This document shows positions 55,658 through 64,000 of a stretch of 64,000 bases of DNA, one piece after another. The notes below the pieces were generated by a model, which was given only the letters and a program-made list of their open reading frames with translations, was not told where the DNA came from and ran no database searches. Position 1 is the first letter of the stretch, and every line of letters begins with the position of its first letter. Source of the DNA: Botryosphaeria dothidea (Eukaryota; Ascomycota; Dothideomycetes; Botryosphaeriales; Botryosphaeriaceae); assembly GCA_011503125.2 (NCBI GenBank), contig WWBZ02000082.1:1-64000 (forward strand). The letters run 5' to 3'. The translations under genes were made by a program, and so were the position numbers.

Positions 55658-57628
55658 CTAATCACAAGTCTCGCGATCCATCATACCCTCCCAATCACAA
55701 GCCCCGACGAGCATGAATTCCGTTCTCGACTTCTTGCGGAGCACGACGGGTGTCGGACAGCCGTGCAGAACCCATACCTGATCCCCAACAACCGAAGGCG
55801 AGGGCACCAACCCAATGGCGCCCTCATCCTGCCTACCGCGACAAACACGCCTCCAACGTGCGTGGTGTAATAAATTTTCCAGACCGCTCAGGCTGCCCTC
55901 ATGGTACTCTTTGACTAATCCACGACGTTTGAGGGTCAGCAACAGAAGGATGCGTTCTTCCGAGACATCTTTCAGGCGCCAGTCGCGGTCTTCAGTCATG
56001 TCCTTAACCATTGCGTTCACCTGGAAGGGATCTTTATCCTTTGTCGTGAAATGGGGGTCGAAGTCTTCGAAACGGCGCGGGTGGATGGCAGAAATCGTTT
56101 CCACGAGCCTACCCTTTACGTGCAGGCGAGGGTCGACGCTCCGCTGCTCGGTCTTGTGCTTGTACTTTCCGGATGACTTGAAGCTCCAATCCCCGGGGAA
56201 GGTGTTGAACTTGGCGATCACGCTGGTGAGGGGGAACATGCGGATGCGAGTCGACCAGTCTGGAACCCAGGAGGGAAGATTGTCGACGCGTTTGATGTTG
56301 TAGATCTTGTCGCAGAATCCGCGTACCAGCAGGTCTTCCGTCTCCTCGATGCAAGCTCTGGTCGCGTCGATGAAGACTTGCTGATCAGTGAGTTTGTAGT
56401 CCGGGGTGATGAGCCTTTGACCTGCAGGGTGGAGCCCTTGGAAAGCGTAGATGACGTCTTTCTTCTCCGTAACTCCCAGATTCGCGCGGATCCGGGTCTG
56501 GGAGAGGTAGCTTTCGTTACTCGCGAGGTCCGGAAGCCCTCCAGCTGCGACGGATCGGAGGGAGCCCAGGAGCATGGTGAACTTGCTCCAGTACGAATTC
56601 CTGTAGAACTCAGGCATCTTCCCCTTTAGGTGAAACAGCCACGAAAACGGATCCCAACCGGATCCCTCCTCCCATATGCTGGGCGCCATCTTGTGAGCCG
56701 TATCAGGACAGACTTGCGTAACATAAGTAGAGGTCAATAACAGCTCGTCAGGAGCAAACATCGACTCTCCCAACATCATACACACAGATTTGGAAAGGAC
56801 AGCTTCTTGAACTATCCAGCACCTTAGGAACTGAAGCAGAAATAGTCGGCCAAATTCGAGCGGCGCCGGGGGGGGGTTGGTCGTCGGAGAGCATACCCAA
56901 GGCTGCTGAAAAATATCAGAAAGTCCTTTCAGTCCTTGCACGAACCCGCAGTCATCAAACGTCCTTGCTGTGCCCGGGCTCTTAAAGAGTGATCGACTTC
57001 CCCGAGGTGGCGTTCCGTGGAGCAAGCATTTCTCAGTACAGTTACTTCTGAGGTAGTTGCATGCCAAGCGCTCGTTTTCCTTGCCAGCAGCTTTAATCTC
57101 GGGAGGTCCTGCGAAACTGTAGTCTTGGGAACCGAGACTTCGAGCAATATCAGTAATGATCTGGGTGTACCGATTCGATTCTCCAAGCCATGCAAAGGTT
57201 CTCTCTGCATTCTTGTAGATATCTGCCATGATGGTAACCTGCTGACTTCGCTCAGGAAAGCTTTCCTGATTGATGCACAGCTGATCGACCCACAGATAAG
57301 TCGTCTTTCTGGCGTTGATGACACGCGGAAGGAGATGACGCAAGGTTTCGGTTATCGGAAGCGTCCGTTTATTCGCCAGGTGAAAGGTGCTCGATTTTGT
57401 CGGATCACCCCAGACGTATGATATGGCTTCATACGGAGGCGCGCGGTCGACGCATCCGTGAAAGAGTTCCACGTTCACACCGACGGGTTCGTTATTGAGT
57501 CGGGAGATGTTTCCGCGGCTGATTTTGATGAGCCTGAACTCATTGGGATATCTCAATGGATTGTATAGGAAGACATGCTGGACAGATGAATTATGATGCT
57601 GTGTAACTAGAGACTGATCAGGCTTCAT
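55658..57628 (-). CDS. HET-domain protein
   Basis: Two exons (57628-56897 and 56830-55658) give about 634 residues. The HET core is complete: YEAISYVWGDP near residue 70, LWVDQLCINQES near 112, and a Q-V-x-IMADIYKNA segment. After it comes the CWIVQEAV motif, restored as QPWFLRCWIVQEAV once a 66-bp in-frame intron (56831-56896) is removed; unspliced, 22 residues of low-complexity Pro-rich sequence break the motif. The C-terminal half is less conserved and carries the SWVPDWS and VWVLHG motifs usual in this family. HET proteins mediate vegetative incompatibility and cell death in ascomycetes; the partner is unknown. The ATG is 29 bp from a retrotransposon LTR, so its native promoter is probably displaced or deleted. 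Confidence 0.88.
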   Translation of the reverse strand: MKPDQSLVTQHHNSSVQHVFLYNPLRYPNEFRLIKISRGNISRLNNEPVGVNVELFHGCVDRAPPYEAISYVWGDPTKSSTFHLANKRTLPITETLRHLLPRVINARKTTYLWVDQLCINQESFPERSQQVTIMADIYKNAERTFAWLGESNRYTQIITDIARSLGSQDYSFAGPPEIKAAGKENERLACNYLRSNCTEKCLLHGTPPRGSRSLFKSPGTARTFDDCGFVQGLKGLSDIFQQPWVCSPTTNPPPAPLEFGRLFLLQFLRCWIVQEAVLSKSVCMMLGESMFAPDELLLTSTYVTQVCPDTAHKMAPSIWEEGSGWDPFSWLFHLKGKMPEFYRNSYWSKFTMLLGSLRSVAAGGLPDLASNESYLSQTRIRANLGVTEKKDVIYAFQGLHPAGQRLITPDYKLTDQQVFIDATRACIEETEDLLVRGFCDKIYNIKRVDNLPSWVPDWSTRIRMFPLTSVIAKFNTFPGDWSFKSSGKYKHKTEQRSVDPRLHVKGRLVETISAIHPRRFEDFDPHFTTKDKDPFQVNAMVKDMTEDRDWRLKDVSEERILLLLTLKRRGLVKEYHEGSLSGLENLLHHARWRRVCRGRQDEGAIGLVPSPSVVGDQVWVLHGCPTPVVLRKKSRTEFMLVGACDWEGMMDRETCD

Positions 57629-57657
57629 TTATATAAAAGATGCTTCGGCTGATAGAG

Positions 57658-58437
57658 TGTTACGACGCAGCCTCCACAGGTTAAGGAAGTTAGGGATCAG
57701 CCCAGCTAGGAACGATAGAAGTGGGAGTCCTAAGGATCTGAGGTCACGTGACCACCGCGATCAGTTAGACCCACCCGCTTATTCGCCAAGATAAATAAGC
57801 GGATAAATCCTCTAAGTACTCCCGCTTAGATACTTTACTAGGCTTAGAAGAAATAATAGATAAATTTATTTCTTTCTAATATAGCTTCCTTACGGGTCTA
57901 TACGGGGCTAGCTACCTATTGTGATGGCTTGTATCCGGTGCACTCGCGGAAATACAGTGGCATTCTATCTACGAGAAGACTAAGCTAAAGAGAAAAGGAA
58001 GAAAGGTTTAAGCAAGATAGCGCTGCTTATATATCTCTCCAGAGTTCCTTTTACTGGTAACGAGTTGCAGGGTTTTCTTATTGAGCTTCAGGGTCCTCTC
58101 GACCCAAGGTCTCGCCGCAGGATCCATCCAAGTGTTACGAAGCAGCCTTCCTAGGGAGTATAGGAAGGTCGGGAAAGGCGTTCGAGGAAGCCCCGCGGGA
58201 GAAAGGAATCAATCACGTGACTCTACACGTGACCACTCCACCAAGACCCACATGTCGCCCTTAGGAGCCGGGCAACAAAGGGTAACCGTCGCCCACCAGA
58301 GCCGGGCTACATTAGGCAACACCAGATTGTATAGAACTCTCCTACGTATATAAACCACGCTCTCTAGATAGCTTTGACCTTCGTGGTCAACTTCAACAAT
58401 AGAACTTCGCAATAGAATTTGGACTCTATTGGTAACA
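57658..58437 (+). repeat. 5' LTR of the Gypsy element
   Basis: Begins with TGTTAC and ends with GTAACA, a perfect 6-bp terminal inverted repeat; 780 bp. A TATATAAA box lies at 58347-58354, about 90 bp before the end, as expected of an LTR promoter. The candidate 5-bp target site TAGAG precedes it, but the other copy is not in the window. Most of the LTR keeps CpA and TpG; only 57,790-57,919 lacks them. Confidence 0.82.
58347..58354 (+). promoter_or_regulatory. TATA box in the LTR
   Basis: TATATAAA in the 3' part of the LTR. It is placed to start transcription toward the gag region, away from the HET gene. Confidence 0.55.
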
Positions 58438-58676
58438 AGGCCTTCGCACGCAGTGCTTAGTCTTCAGTCGTCTACTCGTTCCTCACGTACCTCTTCTTGT
58501 ACCCACTCAAGGAAAACCCTCGACAGGTTTTCTCCCTCTTTGGTGTTTGGATCCTTAGAGGTAGAGGCCCGCTCGTTACACTTTGACCACCATCCTTGCA
58601 AGGAGAGGGACCTTTTCAGAAACGAGTTCATCAGGTTAAGTATCACCCCGCCTAACGCGTTTAGGGAAAGCATACG

Positions 58677-60300
58677 ATGGCACCGGGATCTCAGATGGAT
58701 GTCGACCTAATGGAGGGTCGCGCTAAGGGTGCTCAGGGGCGTACTCCGCCCGCGCTATAAATAGAGCCTACTCGAGAAGAACTCTAGGCACTTATTTAGG
58801 AATAAAAAGCCTAGATCGAGCGCCTGCTGGCGCATCAGATAAAACGGAGCGCTACTAAGGTTAAAGTAGCGGTACCCGAGAAGTTCGATAGGGATAGGAA
58901 GAAGCTCTAATCCTTCCTACTCTAGATATAACGCTACCTCTAGTTTAACTAAGCATAATTCGACAACGACGCTAAGAAAGTACTCTTCGTATTAACCTAC
59001 CTTAGAGGAACGGCAGAGGCATAGATAGAACTATACCTTCGCGACTACCTAGCTAACGAATACTCTCTCGAGAAGAGACGGGCAAAGACTAAGGAAATCT
59101 TCGATACCTACACGGGATTCGCAGATAACCTTAGGGCTACTTTTAACGATCGGGACGAAGTCCGCAAAGCCTCTAACGATATTATAACCGTTAGATAGAT
59201 AGGATCTATAGCTGTCTATACAACTAAGTTTTAGTAGCTTATAGCCTACCTCGAATAGTTAGACGAGACTTTCCGCGACCTCTTCTATAAGAGCCTAAAG
59301 AACGAAGTTAAGAAGAATATAATTACTTACGAATACCTACCTACCTTCTAGAAGATAATAGACCTTACGTCTTAGATCGACGGTCGTATATACGAATAGA
59401 AGATAGGTTCTCGATAATCTAATACTTCGAAGCCACGCCGTAAAAGAATAATCCTCGAAGGCGGAGACGCTATAGCCCTCGACGCGGCTAATAGATAGGA
59501 TCCTAAGAAGGATAATAATAGTTATAACTATAAGAAGCCTAAGGAACCTAATCTAAACTAGACGGATAAGTAGAAATAGCGCTATAAGGATCGACTCTAT
59601 ATTACCTACGGTAGTAATAAATACTTCTCTTCTAAGTATTCGTAGAACCCTCGTAGTAAGAAGAATAATAAGTAGACTTCGAGCGCTTAGCGTAAGGCGT
59701 CGGTTATATCTCGCTAAGATAACTACGATACGCTATACTAGATAGCCTATTACGATAACGGCTATTAGGCGTATTAAACTAGTAAAGATATCTCTAGATA
59801 GTACCCCTACGAACCTTAAAACTTCGGTATAATAACTAGAAACGAAGAAGTTATCGAGACCGATAATATTATCGATAGTTTCCCTCTAGATAACGAACTA
59901 GTTAATAGCGAAATAGGAGAACTATACGAGAGTACTAGTAAAACGTAGTCGGATAATACACCTATACTATCGGATAAGCTAGATACTCTTATCTCGCTAG
60001 AAGTCCTCGCTAAAAGATACGGTATTAGTAATTATCTACGGGATAAATAGGGTAATCTTAGCTAAATAATCTAGATCCTATACTAGAGAAGTATCGCGCT
60101 TACGGTTATTTAGGGATAGCGTTAGAATACTCTTTAGGAAACCCGAATCGAATAAGACGGGAAGAAGTACGAACTCCTAGTAACTAAAGAAACGATACTC
60201 GTCGAACGCTACTACTAAGGAACCTTAGCACGCGAGTAAGTAGACTACGACTCCCTTCGGGAGCTAGCACGGATTCTCTACTAGTACGGTACGATAACGA
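58677..60300 (+). pseudogene. Gypsy gag, RIP-inactivated
   Basis: One frame runs from the ATG at 58677 with repeated TAG/TAA stops but no visible frameshift. It includes a retrotransposon Gag region (about 58,880-59,400; FDND, VLTYLRGTA). A zinc knuckle at 59598-59639 keeps CX2CX4HX4C spacing, but all three Cys and the His read Tyr, which is what TGC-to-TAC and CAC-to-TAC changes would produce. The right limit is approximate. No function remains. Confidence 0.85.
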
Positions 60301-60589
60301 TCTAGTATTATATACTCTAGTAGATTCCGGATAAGAAGCTTAATTAACTAACCTTTAGATATTAGGTTCGAAAAGATAAAGTCTACTAGCGAAGAAAGTA
60401 GAACGCCGATAAATAGACTAACTAGAAGTAAGTATATCTCTAAGTTAACGAATAGAAAGACTATATATATAGTAAAGTCTACGGCTACCCTATACTAAAA
60501 AACTAGACGGCCCTACGGTAATAGAACTAATCTAGGGACTATAGTCTAGGTCCCTTTATATAGTATTACGTATATTAAATACGGAAACT

Positions 60590-62187
60590 CTTACCGGACT
60601 AAATCTATAGAAATAGTTTAAAATATAGGGAATACTTAACGAAGTATCTACTAGAATCCTAATCGATATAGGATTAAGCGGAAATTTTATCTATAATAAG
60701 CTTATATAAAAGATAAATATCCTATACCGTAAGAAATAGAAACCGTATTTTCTTAGTAGATTCGACGAATTCTAGGTAGCCTACGAAGAAGACTAGGTAA
60801 AGATAGAAACGAAGAAAGTAATTCTTCGAATAGGAAATTATTAGAAATAAATTTCCCTCGACGTCTAATATATTCCCGGGCACGATATTATTCTAGGTAT
60901 ACTCTAGATCCGAATATAGAAATCTATCTTCGACTTCGGAGAAGAAGACTCTATTATCTTTCGAGAGAAGCTTAAGAACCTTCTACGAAAATAAGAATTA
61001 TAAAAGAAGAATAGATTATTAGATACCCTTCGAAAACTTCTATCGATATTAATACGAAAAGTAGCTAATATAAGGCCTAAATATAGTAACTATATAGGCG
61101 ACTCCGATAGTAGTATAAGTTAGTACTAGAATTACGACGTAAGTAGCGAAGCCTTCTCGGTAAAATATAGCCCTATTATAGAAATAAGCCCTACTAAGCG
61201 AAACGATACCCCCGACTTAAGCTACGACTCTAGCTACGATAGCGTAAAGCCTAGTAATAGTAGTATTAACGGTAATAATAGCGTAAGATCTAGTAACGAT
61301 AGTATTAACGGTAATCTTAAGAAAAGCGTAAGATAGAACTAGAATAGTAGCGTGCGAGACGCCGTCTTCTTAGTAAAATATAGTACCCTAAGCGGAATAA
61401 GACTAACTAAGTTAAATATTCCCGATAAATAAGTATAGTATATATTACGAAGGACTACGAGGAAAAGATATAAGGCTAAGAGTAAGACTTCGCGTAAGTA
61501 ATTAGTAGCTACGGAACCTTAGATCGACGTCTAAATAATTTTAGAAGAGATACTTAAGCGTATAAGACGCTAAGGCTACTAGGTCTACCTTATATATATT
61601 AAACTCTTATAGACGGTATAATAGAGAGTATTAGCTAAAGCCGTACGGGAGAGGCTTAAGAATAAGGATAGTTCTACTCCTATTAGGAGAGACGATCCCG
61701 CGAGGATTAAAAGAGGATAATACGGTAGTTTAGAGATATAGAATAATCTATACGGAGAACCTCTAATACCGGAAATAGAAACGGTATCTAGCGAGTACTA
61801 GAACTTAAAAGCTATTTACTAAGAAAGAGGAAAAGGAGATTTACTAAAGTATTAACTATAGGACTACGAGATTCTACTTAAGCCGGGCACGAAGCTAGCT
61901 TATAAGCCTATCTACTTCTTATTAGTAAAGAAAATAGAGGCTTTAAGGAAATATATCGAGAAGAATCTCGAACGTAGATATATTCGGCCTTTAACGTTAT
62001 TAGCCGGATATCCGATTCTTTTCGTCCTAAAGAAAAATAGTAAATTACGCCTCTATATCGACTACCGATAACTTAACGATATTACGATTAAGAACCGCTA
62101 TCCGCTTCTACGTATCGACGAGCTCTAGGATAAGTTAGGGAAAGTAAAGTATTTTACGAAGCTAGACCTCCGGAAAGAATATTACCT
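60590..62187 (+). pseudogene. Gypsy pol fragment: protease and reverse transcriptase
   Basis: The protease active site near 60,665 reads DIGLSGNF where Asp-Thr-Gly-Ser-Ser-Gly is expected; the changes fit ACA-to-ATA and TCA-to-TTA. The RT region (about 61,890-62,186) keeps RRYIRPLTLLAGYP, LRLYIDYR, NDITIKNRYPLLRIDEL and YFTKLDLR with interspersed stops. The catalytic YxDD lies beyond the break and is absent. Protease and RT share one frame. Confidence 0.87.
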
Positions 62188-62189
62188 AG

Positions 62190-62441
62190 TATTAGGCCTC
62201 TTAAGCGCTACTACCCTAGGTAACTAGGTAGATACTTAATAGTAACTAGAGGCCCTAGCTTTACTAAGAATAACTTAGTTAGATACTAGGGCACGGGCCT
62301 AGCGCTAAGCGACTAGGTATATTTACTCTTCGCCCTTTCTTTCTAGACTCTCTTTTCTTTCTTCTTATATATAGATTTTTAGTTAAAAGTAATACTATTA
62401 TTTCGGCTTTGCTGCCTTATATAATCTATATACTACTAATA
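62190..62441 (+). repeat. LTR of a second, inserted retroelement (RIP-mutated)
   Basis: TATTAG at the start and CTAATA at the end are what RIP would make from TGTTAG...CTAACA. The segment (252 bp) begins exactly where the Gypsy RT reading stops. It contains TATATATAG near 62,366-62,374. The call rests on the termini and the interrupted RT. Confidence 0.6.
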
Positions 62442-63212
62442 AGAAACCTAAACTCGATAACCTAACACCCGTACTATTAACTAGAATCTAAACTTAATAA
62501 CCTATAACTAGAACCCGATAATACTAATAACCTATAACTAGAACTTAATAATACCGATACTCTACGATAAGTAACCTAGAAATATTAAAACCTATACTAT
62601 TAGAGAAATAATAGTATAATTATAGGAAATCTATCTTCTTTAATAAGATATAAAGATCCTCGTTAACCCTATACTAATCTCTTTAGAGTTTTTACCCGTA
62701 ATACGAGTTAAACTACTCTAAAAAACTAGAATAATTAGCGAAGATTATAGCGTAATAAAGCCTATTCCCCGTAAGCTATAGTCGTAGCCGTACTAGTAGT
62801 ATCGCTAGTACTACCTCTATTTACCTAAGCGATAATAAAGAAGAATTATTTAGTAATATAGTTAGGGGACCTAGCTAGAACCTTAACGAGTTTATAAGTA
62901 GTACTATCCTATTTTAGGGCTTTTCTAATACCTTAGACTAGTAAAGTTAAGCTACCGGTCCTATCTTACGTCGTACTACCTTACGTAGAAACCTAGAACC
63001 CGAAGAACTTATATATTTATTAGCCACGGATCTTAATCTTACTATTAACCCCGGAATACTAAGTAACTACGAACTCGACTCTATTCGCTAGCCTAACGAA
63101 TATATCTTCTATAACTAGTATACTATAGTAATAGTAAACTAGCGTACTAAGTTCTACTACGTCCTCTAAGTTACTTAAATAGCTACTAGTAAAGAGTATA
63201 TAGCCTACGTCG
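62442..63212 (+). mobile_element. internal region of the second LTR element, unassigned
   Basis: RIP-saturated sequence, with stops of the RIP type in one long plus-strand frame whose translation is Ser/Asn/Thr-rich. A 20-bp direct repeat lies at 62495-62514 and 62525-62544. No capsid, protease or integrase motif could be recognised. It could be the gag of a Copia-type element, but I cannot show that. Confidence 0.4.
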
Positions 63213-63235
63213 ATTAATTAATTAATTAATTAATT
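63213..63235. repeat. (ATTA)n tail, probable LINE 3' end
   Basis: About five copies of ATTA. Read on the minus strand it follows the LINE 3' region, in the position of the simple-repeat tail of many non-LTR elements. Confidence 0.65.
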
Positions 63236-64000
63236 TATTTTACGTCTACTCTAAGTTAAAAACTATCTAGACGGCCCTATTTAAAGGAGCTTCCTAGGGG
63301 GTACGTAGTTTCGAGAAAGGTAAAGGCACGTTAGAGAAAAGGAACGGTTAGATCTAGGCTTTCGAGATAACTAATACTAAGAAAAGTAAGAGGGTTTAAA
63401 AAAGTAGTAGGTAAGGAGCGTAAGCGGATAAGTAGGTATTTTAAATCCCCTCGGATAGTTCGTTAAGGCGCCATTTCCGCGTAGCGATCCTCGTTTCTTT
63501 TAGATATTCTAGTATAGCTAGAATACCTTCTCGGGTATTTAAAACCGAATTAAGGCTAGGGCGTAGTGTCTCTAGGCGTTCTTTTATTTTAAGCCGGGGG
63601 GCTTTATAAAGAGAATATCCTAGTATAAGGTATCTAGGGGTTTATTTAGCCGTTCCGCACGTATATAGGTCCGTTTCCGCGTAGGAGAACCTATATAGGT
63701 AGGACTTAAAGTAGCCGTATCCTACTTTTAGTTAGTAAAAGGCGGAGGCTATTTCCCGCTCCGTAGGAGGGAGATTTAGCTTTTTCCTTATTTTCCAACT
63801 AAACGTTTTTAAATAGGAGGATTCTCGGGCTAGTTTCTTAAGCTTTTCCGCTTTAAAGAGCCACTCCTTATCTAGTTCTTGCTTTACTAGCATTCGGTAG
63901 AAAGCTAGGCTAGATTCTTTAGTTTTTAGAGGGCATTTTGCCGCGTACTTTGCTAGGGAATCAGCTTCTTCGTTTCCTACTATATTCCGGTGGCCGGGAA
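63236..64000 (-). mobile_element. Tad1-like LINE 3' end, antisense, runs off the window
   Basis: On the minus strand one frame (63998 to a stop at 63441, 185 codons) reads PGHRNIVGNEEADSLAKYAA, the RNase H HxxxxGNExAD motif. Further on come a GYFKSYLYRF segment, a TCGTAK motif and the C terminus YLKETRIATRKW, which resembles the conserved end of fungal Tad1/CgT1-type LINE ORF2. Two RIP-type stops interrupt it. 63236-63440 is the 3' UTR. The rest of ORF2 lies beyond 64000. Confidence 0.82.

Follow-up and report, generated by a model that had tools for sequence, protein, structure and literature searches.

Near the end of a 64,000-nucleotide stretch of the Botryosphaeria dothidea genome (positions 1-64,000 of contig WWBZ02000082.1, called the window below), positions 59222-63330 are 4109 bases of DNA saturated by repeat-induced point mutation (RIP), bordering a normal gene-rich region. 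They comprise part of a Ty3/gypsy-like retrotransposon copy (the main family) followed by a second repeat (repeat 2), and the few CpA dinucleotides left in them lie mostly in CACG. Ordinary RIP near saturation, with a graded preference for the bases flanking CpA, explains these survivors in our view, at a probability of roughly 0.8. The strongest single determinant of CpA survival is the base before it, G at -1 (counting from the C of CpA, CACG has C at +2 and G at +3). The preference would belong to the machinery that makes the mutations, most likely a cytosine methyltransferase route of the RID type. RIP at CpA is slowed roughly 1.6 to 3 fold by each of three features, G at -1, C at +2 and either C or G at +3, whose effects are nearly independent. 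By comparison with the median context, GCACG and GCACC are about 3-4 times slower to mutate, and relative to TCATA about 7 times. A high dose would strip nearly all other CpA, and the slow contexts that stay would look exempt; at saturation, a 3-4 fold difference in rate can look like absolute protection.

Survivors in the saturated stretch

An exact recount of 59222-63330 found ten CpA, eight in CACG and two in CACC (Table 1), in agreement with an earlier note on this DNA, and the counts of 216 CpG and 716 TpA bear out its picture of a RIP-saturated stretch with few CpA or TpG left and plentiful CpG. The note's two TpG are in fact three: the first, at 61353 rather than 61351, is indeed the complement of CACG, the second lies at 62413 (the note gave about 62412), and the one at 62410 had been missed. 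When both strands are counted, CAC accounts for 11 of the 13 survivors and CACG for 9, compared with 5.9% of the 7955 CpA in window positions 1-58000 (both strands; binomial probability of at least 9 in 13, 5e-9). Every one of the 13 has CA preceded by G or followed by C, compared with 46.4% of unmutated CpA (P = 5e-5), by a rule that was formulated post hoc from these same 13 survivors.

Table 1. Repeats and surviving CpA sites at the end of the window, with the number of aligned copies that keep CA
Feature	Positions	Strand	Observation
Ty3/gypsy-like retrotransposon copy, internal part, RIP-mutated	58135..62190	+	saturated from about 59222
Surviving CACG (CCACG)	59434..59437	+	CA in 12/30 copies with letters, window copy included
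Surviving CACC (ACACC)	59959..59962	+	CA in 11/33 copies
Surviving CACG (GCACG)	60229..60232	+	CA in 10/33 copies, 21 TA, 2 CG
Surviving CACG (GCACG)	60268..60271	+	CA in 12/33 copies
Surviving CACG (GCACG)	60881..60884	+	CA in 31/38 copies; top among 21 heavily mutated copies (15/21)
Surviving CACG, TpG at 61353	61351..61354	-	CA in 12/38 copies
Surviving CACG (GCACG)	61888..61891	+	CA in 26/36 copies
Second repeat family (repeat 2), RIP-saturated	62188..63211	.	1024 bases; at least 39 other places, 93-97% identity among the matches listed
Surviving CACG (GCACG), repeat 2	62292..62295	+	CA in 3/8 copies with letters
Two surviving CpA, GCAAA (TpG 62410) and GCAGC (TpG 62413)	62410..62414	-	CA in 5/10 and 3/10 copies
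Surviving CACC (ACACC), repeat 2	62466..62469	+	CA in 3/10 copies
Surviving CACG (CCACG), repeat 2	63025..63028	+	CA in 6/10 copies
Surviving CACG (GCACG), past repeat 2	63327..63330	+	this copy alone

Sequence context and RIP dose across copies

The tests span about 226 kb of distinct sequence, picked around the two repeat families and their flanks in a genome of 51.7 Mb and 78 contigs. For the main family, 38 copies were aligned to window coordinates; CpA sites were taken from the six least mutated copies (the panel), and the other 32 were scored. The base set holds 7467 records at 276 sites, with 725 survivors. Requiring the -1, +2 and +3 bases to be unchanged drops 1823 records and leaves 5644, with 624 survivors. 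The effective sample is the number of sites, not of copies, and the main family has 19 CACG sites among the 262 ascertained. At the panel-defined CpA sites of 59222-62190, the window's own copy kept 6 of 14 CACG, 0 of 2 CACC and 0 of 117 others.

Counting contexts in other repeats of the same genome, as the earlier note had proposed, confirms that CACG is retained, in 147 of 490 records (0.30). CACC survives in 66/263 (0.25), CACT in 38/374 (0.10) and CATA in 19/503 (0.04); further contexts lie at 0.13 (CAAC), 0.12 (CATC) and 0.04 (CAGT), and CATG, at 4/9, has too few records to interpret. Sorted by the base before, survival is 0.20 for GCA (419/2061), 0.08 for ACA (155/2049), and 0.04 for both CCA (80/1844) and TCA (34/968). 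This base also splits CACG itself, with GCACG surviving in 106 of 226 records (0.47) and TCACG in 5 of 75 (0.07). The observed CACG, GCA and CACS values were each reached in 0 of 5000 site-label shuffles, and when the 39 sites (of 276) at which some copy reads neither CA nor TA are excluded, CACG stands at 136/448, CACC at 49/231, GCA at 327/1518 and TCA at 22/712.

A survival model, with T at each position as the reference, gives mutation rates (intervals from a bootstrap over sites in brackets) of 0.35 (0.26-0.46) for G at -1, 0.59 (0.44-0.74) for C at +2, 0.55 (0.43-0.70) for C at +3 and 0.63 (0.47-0.77) for G at +3. The effects are nearly additive. Under an additive -1/+2/+3 model, GCACG and GCACC mutate at 0.26-0.29 times the median rate, and at unseen sites the model's area under the receiver operating curve (AUC) is 0.753, compared with 0.585 for CACG alone and 0.758 when a CACG term is added. 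The effects keep their direction when only records with an identical nine-base context are used, when TGCA and CACA are left out, on either strand, and in both halves of the element.

Retention of CACG depends on dose. Over 39 merged segments (200.6 kb) cut into 386 pieces of 500 bases and sorted into seven classes by rising RIP, the CACG share of CpA is 0.061, 0.072, 0.135, 0.188, 0.215, 0.308 and 0.348, while TACG/TA stays flat at 0.053-0.062. Since the share climbs with RIP across segments and TACG/TA is static, the enrichment is dose-dependent and is no quirk of one copy. In the more heavily mutated half of the copies, CA survives in 35/104 at GCACG, and in 11/1565 at contexts that lack G at -1 and are not CACC or CACG. 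Among 21 heavily mutated copies, CA is found in at least three copies at 32 sites, of which 24 are GCA, 17 are CAC, 29 are either and 10 are CACG. Copy relatedness was considered as a source of shared survivors and rejected, as the two do not track each other (r 0.08). More CpA than TpG survive in 36 of the 38 main-family rows; the coding strand of the parent was perhaps A-rich. Repeat 2, compared in 10 of at least 40 places, keeps CA in two or more copies at 12 sites, every one of them GCA or CAC; of the 19 sites where a single copy keeps CA, 5 are GCA or CAC. CACG sites thus undergo less mutation than an average CpA, as the earlier note held, in the main family and in repeat 2, and also in sequence outside both (below).

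The mutations themselves are those of RIP, being C to T changes centred on CpA on both strands, with context effects on both strands. At panel sites, the mutated fraction is 0.90 for CpA, 0.24 for CpC, 0.06 for CpT and 0.003 for CpG, and the correlations with the RIP index, which falls as RIP rises, are -0.88, -0.78, -0.68 and -0.10, respectively (32 copies). The CpC changes are mostly in CCT (1343/4664 at strict sites; main family, window positions 58330-62190 and copies in L001-L060). Sorted by the base at -1, CpC is mutated at 0.310 after T, 0.178 after C, 0.171 after A and 0.046 after G; protection by G at -1 therefore recurs at CpC, which makes this rule independent of CpA and of a neighbouring CpG.

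CpG is mutated at most at 0.9% in any of the 32 main-family copies. Its decay to TpG there, at 0.1-0.5% of strict sites, is not the CpG decay of a process like methylation induced premeiotically (MIP). Where all panel rows read TpG, CpG stands in 81 of 834 target cells, compared with 0.1-0.5% before other bases, among the cells listed. Unlike the main family, repeat 2 (window positions 62188-63211; L030, L061-L068) has 30 of 81 CpG columns in which one or more of the 10 copies read T, possibly a sign of older copies or of CpG methylation. At 58484, CpA and CpG states occur side by side, with TTACG in 15 copies, TCGCG in 8 and TCACG in 6.

Weighing the explanations

Several observations weigh against reading the survivors as the product of graded flank preference alone. 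The -1 effect is weaker for minus-strand sites, where GCA (56/326) exceeds ACA (36/276) only modestly. Adding -2 and +4 lowers the Akaike information criterion (AIC) to 2931.9. At 60881 and 61888, both GCACGA, CA is kept more than at the other GCACG survivors of the window, and survival there is so far above the average GCACG that context past five bases probably matters. No unmutated parent was among the copies fetched, and ancestral CpA were taken from the copies with the least mutation, which themselves still have indices of 0.18-0.45; fast contexts are thus under-represented, and the rate ratios are probably underestimated. The remaining points concern the CpG within CACG. Main-family CACG survives somewhat better than CACC, the 0.30 and 0.25 given above becoming 0.30 and 0.21 at stricter sites. 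In the survival model, a CpG(+2) term retains a rate of 0.63 (0.38-0.97) after the additive effects and improves AIC by 13 (2992.8 vs 3005.8, sites taken as independent), and five CpG terms added to a -3 to +5 model improve it by 20 (sites again taken as independent). For the copy in the window itself, a rule based on CACG alone has an AUC of 0.969 compared with 0.948 for the additive model (6 survivors among 133 sites). Lastly, the sequence outside the repeats consists of flanks of the same elements with repeated sites, so it is not fully independent, and its G-preceded CACC and CACG classes comprise six distinct sites each.

Two alternatives place the preference elsewhere than in recognition by the converting enzyme. 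In one, C to T changes are made everywhere and are mended better in GCACS contexts by mismatch repair. The counts are compatible with this, the making and the repair of changes not being separable in these data; preference in the enzyme is the simpler reading, and we regard repair as an unlikely source of the pattern. The other holds that a G+C-rich neighbourhood resists because its cytosine is harder to expose. The protective bases are all G or C, and stacking energy over -2 to +4 does better than no context (AIC 3239.9 vs 3597.5). However, a model of base identity reaches 3005.6, compared with 3201.8-3376.8 for stacking energy, computed with nearest-neighbour values, and 3353.9 for G+C count, and C at -1 (0.83) and G at +2 (1.07) give no appreciable protection. 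The better fit of base identity favours recognition by the converting enzyme over duplex stability, which we find rather improbable. The preference would sit in the enzyme acting on cytosine rather than in later mismatch repair, and that enzyme would be RID.

The earlier note suggested an exemption specific to CACG, in which the following CpG, or its methylation, guards the preceding CpA. CACG is the best survivor of the well-sampled main-family contexts (CATG is higher, on nine records), CpG in that family is hardly ever mutated, and the CpG(+2) term acts beyond the additive effects. Even so, we hold such a shield to be quite unlikely. CACC is nearly equal to CACG, the CpG(+2) term is indistinguishable from zero in a logistic fit (0.34, -0.56 to 1.35), and an upstream CpG gives no protection in the survival model (relative mutation rate 1.15, 0.85-1.84), whereas G at -1, the largest single effect, protects without any CpG, also at CpC. 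Outside the repeats, survival under heavy RIP is 0.53 (0.10-0.77) for GCACC, 0.22 (0.03-0.44) for GCACG, 0.054 for HCACG, 0.044 for GCAD and 0.008 for HCAD (H, not G; D, not C), and CACG exceeds CACC in only 9% of bootstraps with G before and 43% otherwise. Under lighter RIP, GCACC is at 0.45 and GCACG at 0.61 with overlapping intervals, and CACG is ahead in 77% and 19% of bootstraps, respectively. With sites clustered, there is no firm advantage of CACG over CACC outside both repeats. The opposite result, CACC clearly above CACG there (CACG higher in 0 of 300 bootstraps), was also set aside, as it counted the same site in many copies and is not firm once sites are clustered. Because CACC behaves similarly, an upstream CpG is inert and survivors outside the repeats and in repeat 2 follow GCA or CAC, we take CACG to be where two ordinary flank effects coincide, slowing by C at +2 and slowing by C or G at +3; with G at -1 as well, the slowest targets remain. 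In the main family, CpG may add a weak effect of its own.

New CpA might also have arisen after RIP through CpG decay, from CGCG to CACG. The T-bearing CpG columns of repeat 2 and the 81 of 834 main-family cells described above are of the kind that such decay would leave, as is the presence of CGCG in some copies at 2 of the 19 CACG sites, 58484 (8 copies) and 60229 (2 copies). We nevertheless consider it very unlikely. All seven survivors in 59222-62190 stand at sites with CA in 10-31 of the 38 copies and TA in 7-26, and are therefore old CpA; 60229 is the sole one of the seven where any copy reads CG. With both CGCG-bearing sites removed CACG still survives at the 136 of 448 already given, and main-family CpG is nearly unmutated. 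Finally, it is extremely improbable that the element simply carried many CACG from the start, as CACG makes up 19 of the 262 ascertained sites and 5.9% of CpA in window positions 1-58000, TACG/TA is constant over the RIP classes, and survival was scored per site; the enrichment does not come from a CACG-rich parent.

Repeats, methyltransferase genes and known systems

RIP is restricted to repeated DNA here. The index is at least 0.98 in every 1-kb row of window positions 1-58000 and drops only in the repeat block at the window end, where each repeat has at least 39 other places in the genome. For the main family, these are counted for 59400-60900 (identity 85-94% among the matches listed); the part from 61000 on has at least 29 other places (84-92% among the matches listed). 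Pfam scans of pieces of the element gave no significant family, and no repeat pairs of 40 bases or more, such as long terminal repeats, were found within 57000-64000 of this copy, the scope of the search. Homology to the main family stops at 62190, where the second repeat starts. Past repeat 2, 63212-63601 is another repeated segment with a 98% match to L021 (C58). On the other side, a HET (heterokaryon-incompatibility) domain gene at 55658-57628 adjoins the RIP-affected block.

Cytosine-5 DNA methylase matches in the genome number four, at three places. One of these proteins, with a BAH domain, looks like DIM-2. For a PF00145 gene (C47:268204-269118), the closest relatives with names come from Diplodia, Neofusicoccum and Macrophomina (52-57% identity); by its motifs it may belong to the RID/Masc1 class, and both names, RID and DIM-2, are presumed here from similarity. 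A third match (G000:C78:878421-879377) lies inside a 1907-residue open frame. On balance, we lean towards a RIP machinery that reads at least five bases and takes its targets in the order CpA, CpC (in CCT) and CpT, leaving the CpG of the main family essentially immune; this may reflect a distinct RID/DIM-2 specificity, and a small effect of CpG is possible.

RIP is usually described by dinucleotide indices, and a measured extended context alters how survivors in RIP-saturated DNA are to be read. It would also sharpen estimates of the RIP dose received by each copy, and provides a concrete specificity to set against RID and DIM-2 mutants. In Magnaporthe, the preference is for (A/T)pCp(A/T). We found no account of -1/+2/+3 context for RIP at CpA in the literature searched, which is weak evidence of absence, as most subscription papers and all supplements were outside our reach.

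The element belongs with known Ty3/gypsy elements in that a piece of reverse transcriptase from a different copy, L029, matches the Ty3 reverse transcriptase/RNase H (E 1.5e-12, against sequences of solved structures), and its copies here are RIP-mutated. The process itself is most like the RID-dependent RIP of Neurospora crassa, with C to T changes on both strands, a strong preference for CpA, repeats as targets, dose-dependent saturation, and putative RID-like and DIM-2-like genes in the genome. It differs in its secondary order, here CpC (CCT) followed by CpT, main-family CpG being almost untouched, and in that the extended -1/+2/+3 preference is quantified here. For N. crassa, the accessible text of one report gives the order CpA>CpT>CpG>CpC, and a different order in Trichoderma (PMC5496416). 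Among Dothideomycetes, Leptosphaeria maculans has RIP signatures at CpA, CpT and CpG, with CpC absent from the main text of the report (PMC4352252), and in Zymoseptoria tritici 240 of 242 RIP mutations are in CpA (PMC10294615, in its accessible part), CpG being preferentially methylated, yet without high mutation rates, according to the available text of PMC8016269. Both species thus share the CpA-dominated signature seen here, and the accessible parts of these reports stop at the dinucleotide. In Microbotryum, the available text describes RIP-like hypermutation of TpCpG (PMC5381629), so the base before the target cytosine matters there, as it does in B. dothidea; unlike this basidiomycete, in which CpG is targeted, B. 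dothidea targets CpA and spares CpG in the main family.

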